Source: Arthrobacter silviterrae (lineage in GTDB: Bacteria > Actinomycetota > Actinomycetes > Actinomycetales > Micrococcaceae). From it: a DNA stretch of 64,000 nt. Position numbers and translations under genes: made by a program. The notes below the pieces were generated by a model, which was not told the DNA's origin, ran no database searches, and saw only the letters and a program-made list of their open reading frames with translations. This document shows, piece after piece, positions 246-9,683 of the stretch (positions are counted from its first letter, which is position 1; every line of letters begins with the position of its first letter). The DNA lies in assembly GCF_011045165.1 (NCBI RefSeq), contig NZ_JAAKZI010000006.1:1-64000 (forward strand), read 5' to 3'.

Positions 246-1559
246 TCAGGACAGCGCGGCAACCCCGGGATACAGCGGATGGGCAGCGGCCAGGGCGGCC
301 ACCCGCGAGCGCAGGCCCGAGAGGTCGTCGCCGGGTGCAGCGATGAGTGCCTCGGCAATGATGTCCGCGACCTCGGTGAACGCTTCCAGGCCGAAGCCGC
401 GCGTGGCCAGGGCGGGCGTGCCGATGCGCAGGCCGGAGGTGACCATGGGCGGCCGGGGGTCAAACGGCACGGCGTTGCGGTTGACCGTGACGTCAATCGC
501 TGCCAGCCGGTCCTCGGCCTGCTGCCCGTCCAGCTCGCAGTTGCGCAGGTCCACCAGGACCAGGTGGACGTCGGTGCCCCCGGAGATGACGGAGATCCCC
601 TTGGCGGCGACGTCGGGCTGGATGAGGCGCTCGGCCAGGATCCGCGCGCCGGCCAGCACCCGTTCCTGCCGCTCCCTGAACTCGGCCGAGGCGGCGATCT
701 TGAACGCCACGGCCTTGCCGGCAATGACGTGCTCCAGGGGTCCGCCCTGCTGTCCGGGGAACACGGCAGAGTTGATCTTCTTGGCGATCTCGGCGTCGTT
801 GGAAAGGATGATGCCGCCGCGCGGACCGGCCAGGGTCTTGTGCGTGGTGGAAGTGGTGACGTGGGCGTGCGGCACGGGGGACGGGTGCAGCCCGGCCGCG
901 ACCAGGCCGGCGAAGTGGGCCATGTCCACCATGAGGTAGGCCCCCACCAGGTCCGCAATGCGGCGGAACTCGGCGAAGTCGAGCTGGCGGGCGTAGGCGG
1001 ACCAGCCGGCCACGATCAGCGCCGGCCTGTGTTCCAGGGCCAGGCGTTCGACATCGGCCATGTCAACCTGGTGCGTGTCCTCGCGGACCTGATACGGGAC
1101 CACGTTGTACAGCCGGCCGGAGAAGTTGATGCGCATGCCGTGCGTCAGGTGCCCGCCGTGGGCCAGGTTCAGCCCCATGATGGTGTCGCCGGGCTTGATG
1201 AGCGCATGCATCACCGAGGCGTTGGCCTGGGCGCCGGAGTGCGGCTGCACATTCGCATACGCCGCCCCGAACAGGGCCTTGACCCGGTCAATGGCCAGCT
1301 GCTCAATGGCGTCCACGTGCTCGCAGCCGCCGTAGTAGCGCCGGCCCGGATACCCTTCGGCGTACTTGTTGGTCAGCACGGATCCTTGGGCCGCCATGAC
1401 GGCCGCCGCGGTGTGGTTCTCCGAGGCGATCATTTCCAGGCCGTTGCGCTGGCGGGCCAGCTCGGCGTCGATCTGGGCGGCCACTTCCGGATCGAGGGTG
1501 GCCAGGGGCGCATCCAGGCTGGGCGAGACCACCTGGGCATAGCCGACGGCGGCGCTCAC
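246..1559 (-). CDS. glyA: Serine hydroxymethyltransferase
   Basis: PLP enzyme interconverting glycine plus 5,10-methylene-THF and serine plus THF in the cytoplasm. The 437-residue protein has the family N-terminus ([10 protein letters not shown]), the active-site motif [13 protein letters not shown] with the PLP lysine at about residue 241, and normal length. It starts with GTG; the start overlaps the gcvH stop as GTGA (1556-1559), so the two are probably translationally coupled. As last gene of the riboswitch-controlled gcvPTH-glyA operon it uses the methylene-THF released by glycine cleavage to turn a second glycine into serine. Confidence 0.97.
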
Positions 1560-1939
1560 AGCGTGCCTCCGTTGGCCGCGGCGTATTCCTCAGCTGTCAG
1601 CAGCGGGCCCTCGGCGTCAACAGCCACCTTGAACAGCCAGCCTGCCCCGTAGGGGTCGGAGTTGATCACTGCCGGGTCTTCGACGGCGGCGGCATTCACT
1701 TCCGTGACCTGGCCGGTGACGGGGGCGTACAAATCGGAGACGGACTTCGTTGACTCGATCTCCCCGCAGGTCTCGCCTGCCGTGACGGTGGCACCCACCT
1801 CGGGCAGGTCCACGTACACAATGTCGCCGAGGGCTTCGGTGGCCACGGCGGTGACGCCGACAGTGGAGGGGCCGGCGCCGTCGGAGGCGAGCCACTCATG
1901 TTCGGCGGAATACTTCAGTTCAGCAACTACCTTGCTCAT
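1556..1939 (-). CDS. gcvH: Glycine cleavage system H protein
   Basis: Lipoyl carrier protein (127 residues) that shuttles the aminomethyl group between GcvP, GcvT and dihydrolipoamide dehydrogenase. The lipoylation motif ESTKSVSD places the lipoyl-lysine at about residue 65. Two adjacent ATGs exist (1942 and 1939); the second is preferred because AAGGA is 5 bases from it and only 2 from the first. It is 41 bases downstream of gcvT and overlaps glyA. No lpd or lipoate synthesis gene is visible nearby. Confidence 0.96.
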
Positions 1940-1980
1940 CATGATCCTTGTCGTTGGACGTAAATAAACGGGAGTGGGGA

Positions 1981-3114
1981 CTACTTTTGGCGCTTGTAGA
2001 ACGGCAGGGCGACAACCTCGAAGGGCTCGGCCTTGCCGCGGAGGTCCACGTCCAGCCGGGTGCCCACCGCGGAGTGCTCGACGTCGACATAGGCCAGGGC
2101 CACCGGGTAGCCGAGGGTGGGGCTGGGCTGGCCTGAGGTGACCTCGCCAACGGCGGCACCGTCCTTGAGGACCGTGTAGTGCCCGCGGGCGGCCCGGCGG
2201 CCCATGCCCTTCAGGCCCACCAGGCGGCGGCCGGAGGTGACGCCGTCGCCGGATTCCTTGATCGCGGCGAGCGCGGCCTTGCCCACAAAGTCGCTTTCCT
2301 TGGCCAGGGAGACCACGGGCCCCAGGCCGGCGGCGTAGGCGTGGCCGTCCCGGGAGAGCTCGTTGCCGTACAGCGGCATGCCCGCTTCCAGGCGCAGGGA
2401 GTCGCGCGCGGCCAGCCCGGCCGGAATGAGCCCCCGGTCCTTGCCGTTTTCGAGCAGGGCCTGCCAGAGGGCCGGCGCCGCGGCGTTGGGCAGGTAGATC
2501 TCAAAGCCGTCCTCGCCGGTGTAGCCGGTCCGGGCCACGAGCAGCTTCCCCGTGGCGCCGTTGACGGTGATGCCCACCTCCGCGGCGGAGTAGTACTTCA
2601 TCTCCGTCACGAGCTGGTGCTGGTCCTCGGGCACCAGCGACAGGAGGATGGCCTCGGCGTTGGGGCCCTGCACGGCGATCAGGGAGGTTTCGCCGGAGAC
2701 GTTTTCGACGGCGGCGTCAAAGCCGGCGGACCGCTCTGCCAGGAGGGCGGCCACGGTGGCGGCGTTGCCGGCGTTGGGGACCACCAGGTACCTGTCCGCG
2801 CTGCGACGGTAGGAGATCAGGTCGTCAATGATGCCGCCGTCGTCCTTGCAGATCAGGGAGTACTTGGCCTTGCCGACCGCGACGGCGGACAGCTTGCCGG
2901 CGAGCGCATAGTCCAGGAACGCTGCGGCGTCGGGGCCGGTGACCCAGACCTCGCCCATGTGGGAGAGGTCGAAGAGGCCGGCGGCGTTGCGGACGGCGTG
3001 GTGTTCGGCCAGCTCGGAGGAGTACTTCAGCGGCATCTGCCAACCGCCGAAGTCGGTGAAGGAGGCGCCGGCTTTTTCGTGTTCGCCGTAAAGGGCTGTG
3101 TGGTTCTCAGTCAT
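1981..3114 (-). CDS. gcvT: Aminomethyltransferase (glycine cleavage T protein)
   Basis: Transfers the methylene group from aminomethyl-lipoyl GcvH to tetrahydrofolate, releasing ammonia. The 377-residue protein shows the conserved N-terminal block ([20 protein letters not shown]), the folate-site segment [16 protein letters not shown] and the C-terminal GCV_T barrel ([21 protein letters not shown]). It begins 18 bases after gcvP and clearly belongs to the same transcript. Nothing is odd about length or start. Confidence 0.96.
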
Positions 3115-3132
3115 GGGAATTCCTTTGCGGTG

Positions 3133-6012
<2,880 letters not shown>

Positions 6013-6055
6013 GAGGAACTCCAAGTTACGGCCGCACCAAGGGGCGCGGCATGGG

Positions 6056-6251
6056 TTGGGTTCCTCCCCGCTCTGTCGTGGACCTGAGAGATTCCGCAGA
6101 AAGTATCTTCCGCTTGCACCGTCGGTGAGCCCGGTTTCCCGGGCTGCTTTCCAGAGTTGCCTCGCCGTGGCGGTACATGGGCCTGAGAGATTCCTGGGGA
6201 GGGTTTGCTCCTACGGCGCCGCCAAAATTGCTGGGAGGACTCTCCCGCCAC
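6056..6251 (-). promoter_or_regulatory. Tandem glycine riboswitch controlling gcvPTH-glyA
   Basis: Read on the minus strand the leader shows both aptamers of the classic glycine riboswitch. The first has GGAGAG, then GCGCCGTAGGAGCAA and GAATCTCTCAGGC; the second has CTCTGGAAAGCAG, then GGTGCAAGCGGAAG and GAATCTCTCAGGTC, closing with GGGGAGGA. The gcvP start is about 45 bases further on. A short GC-rich hairpin between the second aptamer and the ribosome-binding site is a possible expression platform. Positions 6111-6219 are nearly identical to the riboswitch on the opposite side of the intergenic region. Confidence 0.95.
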
Positions 6252-6410
6252 GATTTGTTAGGCATATGAAAATGTGGGTGATTCGCAGCACACATTACAG
6301 TATTTGTCCTGGCTGGGCAAAACCACGCCGCCCGCGGCGCACCCTGGCCAGGCCCCACTTCGTGCCGCCGGAGACCCGGGTTTGCGCAAAGCCACCCGGC
6401 TGCATTACCG

Positions 6411-6426
6411 TGTGACTCGCGTCACC
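6411..6426. promoter_or_regulatory. Candidate CRP/GlxR-type operator
   Basis: TGTGA (6411-6415), six bases, then TCACC (6422-6426); the core GTGAC-TCGC-GTCAC is a perfect palindrome. This matches the half-site layout of CRP-family sites (GlxR or Crp in actinobacteria). It lies in the 200-bp region between the two divergent glycine riboswitches, nearer the permease side. The remainder of 6252-6453 must hold two divergent promoters, but I cannot place their boxes with confidence. The regulator is inferred from the motif alone. Confidence 0.45.
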
Positions 6427-6453
6427 CAGCATGTTGAAGTGCCCATGATCCGC

Positions 6454-6655
6454 GGCGGGAGAGTCCTGCCGGTACAGTCAGCAGGCGCCGAAGGAGCAAA
6501 CCCTCCCCGGGAATCTCTCAGGCCCATGTACCGCCGTGGCAAGGCAACTCTGGAAAGCAGCCCGGGAAACCGGTCTCACCGACGGTGCAAGCGCCCCTGT
6601 TCCCTCATGGACGCGGAAACTCTCAGGTCCCAGACAGAGTGGGGAGGAACCCGAA
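6454..6655 (+). promoter_or_regulatory. Tandem glycine riboswitch controlling the cycA-like permease
   Basis: Same two-aptamer architecture as the gcvP leader, on the opposite strand: GGAGAG, GCGCCGAAGGAGCAA and GAATCTCTCAGGC in aptamer 1; CTCTGGAAAGCAG, GGTGCAAGCG and AACTCTCAGGTC in aptamer 2, ending GGGGAGGA. The permease start follows about 40 bases later. The P3-type arm of aptamer 2 differs from the gcvP copy (CCCCTGTTCCCTCATGGACG in place of the GAAGATAC arm), while 6485-6593 matches it at 103 of 109 positions. Confidence 0.95.
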
Positions 6656-6694
6656 AATACGTGACACTGTGCCACAGAAACGATGGAGTTCCTT

Positions 6695-9683
<2,989 letters not shown>

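Follow-up and report, generated by a model that had tools for sequence, protein, structure and literature searches.

The window, the whole 64,000-nucleotide stretch of Arthrobacter silviterrae DNA that was analysed, contains an intergenic region (positions 6013–6694) that separates the gcvP–gcvT–gcvH–glyA genes on the minus strand from an amino-acid permease gene on the plus strand. Judging from gene spacing, gcvP, gcvT, gcvH and glyA probably form a single operon; the gcvP frame has an alternative in-frame TTG start at position 6024. The permease is of the D-serine/D-alanine/glycine transporter type, with a score of 397.9 bits against PF00324 and 723.9 bits against NF008272. Since the latter value is slightly below the cut-off of 732, transport of a D-Ser/D-Ala/Gly-type substrate is a good guess. 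The features of the locus are listed in Table 1.

Table 1. Genes, riboswitch aptamers and leader elements around the gcvP–permease intergenic region (window coordinates; X, C-rich loop strand; Y, tail strand; Z, start strand)
Feature	Position	Strand	Basis or remark
gcvP–gcvT–gcvH–glyA run	246..6012	−	3′ of the minus-strand switch; open reading frames and NCBIfam
gcvP	6012–3133	−	NCBIfam TIGR00461, over cut-off
gcvT	3114–1981	−	NCBIfam TIGR00528, over cut-off
gcvH	1942–1556	−	NCBIfam TIGR00527, over cut-off
glyA	1559–246	−	NCBIfam NF000586, over cut-off
Amino-acid permease, D-serine/D-alanine/glycine transporter type	6695..8158	+	NF008272, Pfam PF00324
Permease start TTG	6695	+	Alternative: in-frame ATG at 6683
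gcv aptamer 1	6257–6161	−	RF00504, 60.1 bits
gcv aptamer 2	6164–6063	−	RF00504, 52.7 bits
Permease aptamer 1	6446–6543	+	RF00504, 73.3 bits
Permease aptamer 2	6540–6647	+	RF00504, 48.3 bits; 39.1 bits for 6545–6647 in the whole-window scan
gcv promoter-like TANNNT joined to operator-like TGTG-N7-TCACC	6277..6297	−	Conservation
Permease promoter-like TANNNT joined to operator-like TGTG-N7-TCACC	6406..6426	+	Conservation
gcv strand X, C-rich P3b loop CCTCCCC of aptamer 1	6202–6196	−	Fold
Permease strand X, C-rich P3b loop CCTCCCC of aptamer 1	6502–6508	+	Fold
gcv tail strand Y (GGGGAGGAAC), just 3′ of aptamer 2 P1	6060..6069	−	Pairing analysis
Permease tail strand Y (GGGGAGGAAC)	6641..6650	+	Pairing analysis
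Hairpin between gcv aptamer 2 and the gcvP start	6031..6050	−	Predicted fold
gcvP start region TGGAGTTCCTC-ATG	6010..6023	−	SD GGAG; strand Z GUUCCUC 6019–6013, abuts ATG, tail-complementary
Permease start region TGGAGTTCCTT-TTG	6684..6697	+	SD GGAG; strand Z GUUCCU 6688–6693

All four aptamers exceed the curated RF00504 cut-off (gathering threshold 32 bits), and the matches fall on both strands with two aptamers per side, as the original prediction of two divergent tandem glycine riboswitches had it. By these scores the riboswitch class at both leaders is an already known one. The whole-window scan recovered three of the four aptamers, gcv aptamer 2 being found only in the assembly-wide scan; among the 150 of 307 first-look candidates that were scored in the 4.29-Mb assembly, there was no RF00504 match (E ≤ 0.001) beyond these four. 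In each leader aptamer 1 scores higher than aptamer 2 (Table 1), the values being whole-model scores and not pocket pairs. Both switches stand in the leaders of glycine-related genes, the gcvP run and the Gly-type permease, which agrees with the proposal that the uptake and cleavage genes lie under the same kind of sensor.

The two leaders mirror each other over much of their length. The inverted arms at 6111–6220 and 6484–6593 (110 nt) are 95% complementary, and over the core (6485–6593) the gcv and permease copies differ by six substitutions, so that the identity of 103/109 given by the original prediction is right; the arm of the second aptamer described as wholly different is its P3b arm, which indeed shows no likeness between the copies. 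The mirror is longer than first described, extending to the operator-like site, to the tail after aptamer 2 (6058–6097/6613–6652, 40 nt, 90%) and to a block across both start codons (6003–6023/6684–6704, 21 nt, 90%), both of which had been missed. It had also been suggested that the copies could pair between overlapping transcripts. The arrangement does not lead to such pairing, since inverted copies that are read divergently yield RNAs of one sense, and the two leaders are not complementary unless one of them is also read antisense.

A further shared element, likewise missed at first, begins 35 nt 5′ of aptamer 1 on both sides and joins a promoter-like TANNNT to TGTG-N7-TCACC. The latter resembles a CRP/GlxR-type site and is a candidate operator. 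All 12 pairs from the genus have the pattern TANNNTGTGN7TCAC before the gcv as well as before the permease switch. Of 21 pairs in all, 20 have TGTGN7TCAC before the gcv switch and 12 before the permease switch, the permease-side site being present in 12/12 genus pairs versus 0/9 pairs from outside the genus. The window holds two occurrences of TGTGN7TCACC, both at this locus, but two or more also occurred in 14 of 100 shuffles, so the count means little by itself. A sigma-70 consensus scan of positions 6000–6720 found no promoter, and the call of the TANNNT hexamer rests on its conservation in the 12 pairs.

Each leader contains three short strands, the C-rich P3b loop of aptamer 1 (X), the tail following aptamer 2 (Y) and the start region (Z). 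Strand Y is complementary to X or to Z, and not fully to both together. The X–Y complementarity (CCUCCCC/GGGGAGG) comprises seven Watson–Crick pairs in both window leaders and corresponds to P5, described in Torgerson et al. 2020 as cited in PMC13104608; we therefore rejected the loop–tail pseudoknot as a new element. In our first set, at least six contiguous Watson–Crick pairs of P5 were found in 36 of 37 permease leaders (35 of 36 without locus L076) and in 31 of 31 gcv leaders, which come mostly from one bacterial family and are not independent.

Covariation supports both pairings, with the reservation that the permutations treat related leaders as independent. For X–Y, a leader's own helix scored 18.81 against 17.40 ± 0.39 for permuted partners over 37 distinct loops (reached by 4 of 10,000 permutations), and none of 10,000 permutations reached the own value among 32 hand-picked distant leaders. 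Compensatory versions of the helix are spread over the phylum: CCUCCCC/GGGGAGG, CCUCUCC/GGAGAGG, GCCCCGG/CCGGGGC and CCUCCCG/CGGGAGG. Loci L169 and L181 have only three loop–tail pairs, and 27 of 167 leaders could not be parsed in this analysis. For Y–Z, taken one per distinct tail (n = 55), the own value was 12.24 versus 10.93 ± 0.34 (1 of 10,000), and for the leaders outside Micrococcaceae 23 of 10,000 permutations reached their own value. The test was not significant within Micrococcaceae (1480/10,000) or among permease leaders alone (4784/10,000), where the sequences hardly vary. Versions of this pairing include GAGGAAC/GUUCCUC, GGAGGCC/GGCCUCC and GGAGUUC/GAACUCC; the permease leader of L008 breaks it.

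It should be noted that the Y–Z test used the stretch from the SD to the start, which left out 21 of 165 leaders lacking a recognised SD–start, and that the automatic start pick fell inside the coding sequence for the permease leaders of L085, L089 and L093. With a loose downstream stretch the signal was weaker (39/10,000 over 81 distinct tails; 629/10,000 in Micrococcaceae); the tails of L136, L147, L155 and L166 were wrongly picked there, and some of them entered the SD–start test.

The predicted folds of the two leaders show one pairing each. The minimum free energy fold of the gcv leader places the tail on the start strand (seven Y–Z pairs, z = −2.40). The fold of the permease leader has 7/7 X–Y pairs, with z = +1.66 and 195 of 200 shuffles folding as well; its start strand is not free, being held by the aptamer-1 core at 6492–6497. 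A nested prediction cannot display P5 alongside intact aptamers. Which of the two pairings holds with glycine is proposed below from sequence and from the literature.

Among 23 genomes of the genus, RF00504 is present in 17, and the same 17 hold a window-type gcvP (86–100% identity). A close relative of the permease (E ≤ 1e-150) is found in 14 of the 23, and in 12 it adjoins gcvP with a switch on both sides. The spacers between the switches measure 144–231 bp in ten of these pairs and 770 and 1231 bp in L088 and L094. One genome (G009) has the permease next to gcvP with an RF00504 match on the gcv side only; in another (G004) some 6 kb separate it from the gcvP end, and RF00504 matched the gcv pair alone. 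A second, distant gcvP (61–64% identity; G000:C85:65360-68245 and homologues) occurs in 22 of the 23 genomes, one copy being partial, and the six genomes having only this gcvP gave no RF00504 match.

In a wider survey, 80 of 579 permease loci were kept, some of which hold little upstream DNA: 11 had both switches, 15 a switch on the permease strand only, 6 on the gcv side only, and 48 no match. Two of the 11 were judged to be among the 12 genus genomes, which leaves nine further loci; L005, L027 and L030 were left out, being judged from their equal lengths to be the same contigs as L095, L098 and L093. Of the 15 permease-strand-only loci, L076 has its switch about 1.7 kb before the permease and was counted as a permease leader in the 107-switch tree and the monophyly test described below and in the P5 tally. 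The link between switch and permease is less sure in L069, L072, L075, L077 and L078, since 125–264 nt separate the nominal end of the switch from the first start codon in the permease frame. Overall, the pair has the look of an old arrangement that some lineages have retained and others have altered or lost.

Other contexts were seen in relatives. The Arthrobacter mangrovi genome (L117, L118) has another permease with a switch that shares its strand with a switch-bearing gcvP; the two follow each other head to tail, at a distance of about 2 kb, and do not stand back to back. Genes preceded by an RF00504 match also include those for lipoyl synthase (L106), a methylenetetrahydrofolate reductase-like gene (L137) and genes for DUF5058 membrane proteins (L125, identified by Pfam and not parsed as a tandem, and L169, identified by its similar start).

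In gapped alignment the window pair is 92.7% identical over the core, which makes it the most alike of 20 own pairs; it also ranks first of 20 in both directions of comparison. When the gcv and the permease switch come from different genomes, their mean identity is 84.4% (sd 3.4, maximum 92.8%), with 4 of 380 such pairs reaching the window value. Because cross-genome pairs are already this similar, most of the likeness is best put down to constraint that both switches share through one mechanism. The 20-genome tests given here and below do not include the Intrasporangium pair (L061). A tree of 107 tandem switches separates the gcv from the permease leaders of the genus, the permease group of 13 tips having a UFboot value of 88 and the gcv group 46. 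Monophyly gave p-AU = 0.060 for all permease leaders and 0.268 for those of the Arthrobacter group (6 of the 107 rows left out), so that the permease switches may go back to one ancient switch or to several recruitments. The possibility that an inversion between the two copies had exchanged their promoters was also considered and rejected, all 230 spacer matches (21 pairs, E ≤ 0.01) having the same orientation. As a separate observation, the gcvP genes of L111, L113, L115, L130, L132 and L135, which have no paired permease, have a switch whose 5′ half is of the permease type (TGATCTGCGG...TGCCGGTAC), in which they differ from the gcvP genes paired with a permease; this half could be due either to exchange or to an ancestral state.

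The original prediction ascribed the similarity to an inverted duplication, or gene conversion, that placed uptake and cleavage under one sensor. A recent duplication, in or near the species, would account for the 103/109 identity, for mirrored blocks reaching both start codons and for the top rank of the window pair in core likeness, but the trees make it very improbable. The tree of 20 paired genomes puts all 20 gcv switches on one side of a split and all 20 permease switches on the other (UFboot 100), and a tree constrained to make the two window switches a sister pair is worse by 53.6 log units (p-AU = 0.00012), so that they are not each other's closest relatives and a recent copy was ruled out by this constrained-tree test. 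The arrangement is, moreover, common to 12 of the 23 genus genomes, and at all six differing bases the window gcv copy keeps the majority gcv state (14–19 of 19 others); the permease copy has the permease majority at two of these sites and the state of 3–9 of the 19 others at four. On this evidence the two switches are old sister copies that have evolved separately and not a fresh copy; an old duplication in an ancestor of these genera is possible. Ancient divergence of the leaders is largely what the original prediction had itself named as refuting it; the window pair is nevertheless somewhat more alike than expected. Another explanation of the likeness would be concerted evolution, in which frequent conversion between the inverted copies keeps the switches alike. 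Conversion does occur in the lineage: in L007 (Pseudarthrobacter phenanthrenivorans SWC37) the copies are identical along 47 bases that span the hypervariable aptamer-2 arm, with a patch score of 28.6, whereas the 380 cross-genome pairs score 10.7 at most (0/380 as high), which clearly points to gene conversion. The aptamer-2 P3b of L008 and L010 and the aptamer-2 P2 of the window rank 1–2 of 20, and over both aptamers own pairs exceed cross pairs (0.760 versus 0.746; within-clade permutation p = 0.0022, Mann–Whitney p = 0.018). Yet the effect over the core is tiny (0.853 versus 0.844, within-clade p = 0.070), 19 of 20 own pairs lie inside the cross-pair range, 4.2% of cross pairs score at least as high as the window patch (7.12), there is no inverted spacer, all 230 spacer matches being in plus orientation, and frequent whole-switch conversion would have destroyed the 20/20 partition. 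Strong concerted evolution was therefore rejected, the effect being tiny apart from L007, and we consider frequent conversion an unlikely explanation of the likeness. In the window itself a small patch is possible but only hinted at: the gcv copy has one base that none of the 19 other gcv switches shares and that 16 of the 19 other permease switches have, and its aptamer 2 has a permease-like P2 loop. Among the open-licence PMC papers listed, none was seen to describe gene conversion for a riboswitch.

We consider it fairly probable that the region is a bidirectional glycine-response region in which both genes are ON with glycine, its old sister switches being kept alike mainly by constraint. 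Each side would be the same module, consisting of TANNNT, TGTG-N7-TCACC, a short leader, the tandem aptamer, the tail GGGGAGGAAC, a small hairpin and the SD/start. Without glycine, the tail would pair with the start region and hide it; with glycine, the two aptamers would fold, the C-rich P3b loop of aptamer 1 would capture the tail (P5), and translation could begin. Glycine would thereby turn on both genes, uptake and cleavage together, which would fit the use of external glycine, with occasional gene conversion between the switches in some lineages. The prediction that both leaders are translational ON switches follows from the presence in both of P5 strands and of a tail complementary to the start site, and from the report that tandem glycine switches often have P5 when they are of the ON type and lack it when they are of the OFF type (Torgerson et al. 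2020, cited through PMC13104608).

The sign on the permease side could also be opposite, with a gcv leader that is ON and a permease leader that is OFF, such that an excess of glycine would promote its cleavage and curb its uptake. Such opposed control has a detoxification logic and follows the published rule for transporter switches: in Crum et al. 2019 (PMC6944388), glycine switches of gcv and transporter genes diverge by context, and the transporter ones are tied to OFF control. The predicted permease fold, in which the start strand stays covered despite the tail being on the P3b loop, slightly strengthens this possibility and slightly weakens the ON/ON explanation. Against it, the permease leader shares the gcv elements, namely P5 (as do nearly all permease leaders tallied above), a higher-scoring aptamer 1, and the same tail and start strand. 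According to PMC13104608, OFF versions lack P5 and have the conserved pocket in their second aptamer, and in ON versions it is aptamer 1 that is conserved (from Torgerson et al. 2020, quoted there); the permease leader has the P5 strands. On balance we regard opposed control as rather improbable. For the ON/ON reading in its fullest form, the chances seem to us about even: the importer would stand under an ON-type tandem switch that mirrors the gcv switch from the operator-like site to the start codon and serves positive feed-forward use of glycine, the sign would follow the platform type (P5) and not the gene, and the copies would swap patches by conversion in some lineages.

The gcv side resembles the tandem ON switches of Bacillus subtilis gcvT and of Streptomyces griseus gcvTH and gcvP, as presented in PMC13104608, in having two aptamers and one expression platform before cleavage genes, and, like them, the window leaders have P5 and a strong aptamer 1 (here by score). 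The window platform is apparently translational, as in Neisseria gonorrhoeae gcvT, whereas that of B. subtilis is transcriptional. A further difference is that the gcv switch here is faced by a second switch of the same type before a permease. The permease side is comparable to the transporter switches of Vibrionaceae and Bacillaceae and to that of the Streptococcus pyogenes sodium:alanine symporter, whose aptamers also precede a glycine-related transporter, but the window has an APC-type permease, a higher-scoring aptamer 1, P5 strands and a gcv-like platform. P5 as defined by Torgerson, Hiller and Strobel 2020 (via PMC13104608) joins a poly-C P3b loop to a poly-G stretch right after aptamer 2, as here, and is found there in 66% of aminomethyltransferase switches; in our data it is also present in permease leaders and has compensatory versions in distant lineages. 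Among Actinobacteria, 74% of glycine switches belong to gcv genes (Crum et al. 2019, PMC6944388). Among the titles listed from the open-licence PMC literature, none is on paired gcv/permease glycine switches. As the switch class and P5 are already known, the point of interest is the ON-type importer switch.

Taken together, these results show a riboswitch of known class in a mirrored arrangement that is both unusual and conserved, and they yield a prediction for the importer that breaks the rule. The near-identity of two RNA switches can stem largely from a shared mechanism and not from recent copying, which calls for caution when repeats are interpreted as duplications. The locus is a natural paired experiment, in which the same riboswitch type precedes two genes of opposite metabolic direction in one control region, and 12 of the 23 genus genomes, together with further relatives, retain the pair. 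The rule of "cleavage ON, transport OFF" thereby becomes directly testable at a single locus and, if the reading of an ON-type importer switch is true, transporter switches would not be OFF by rule.
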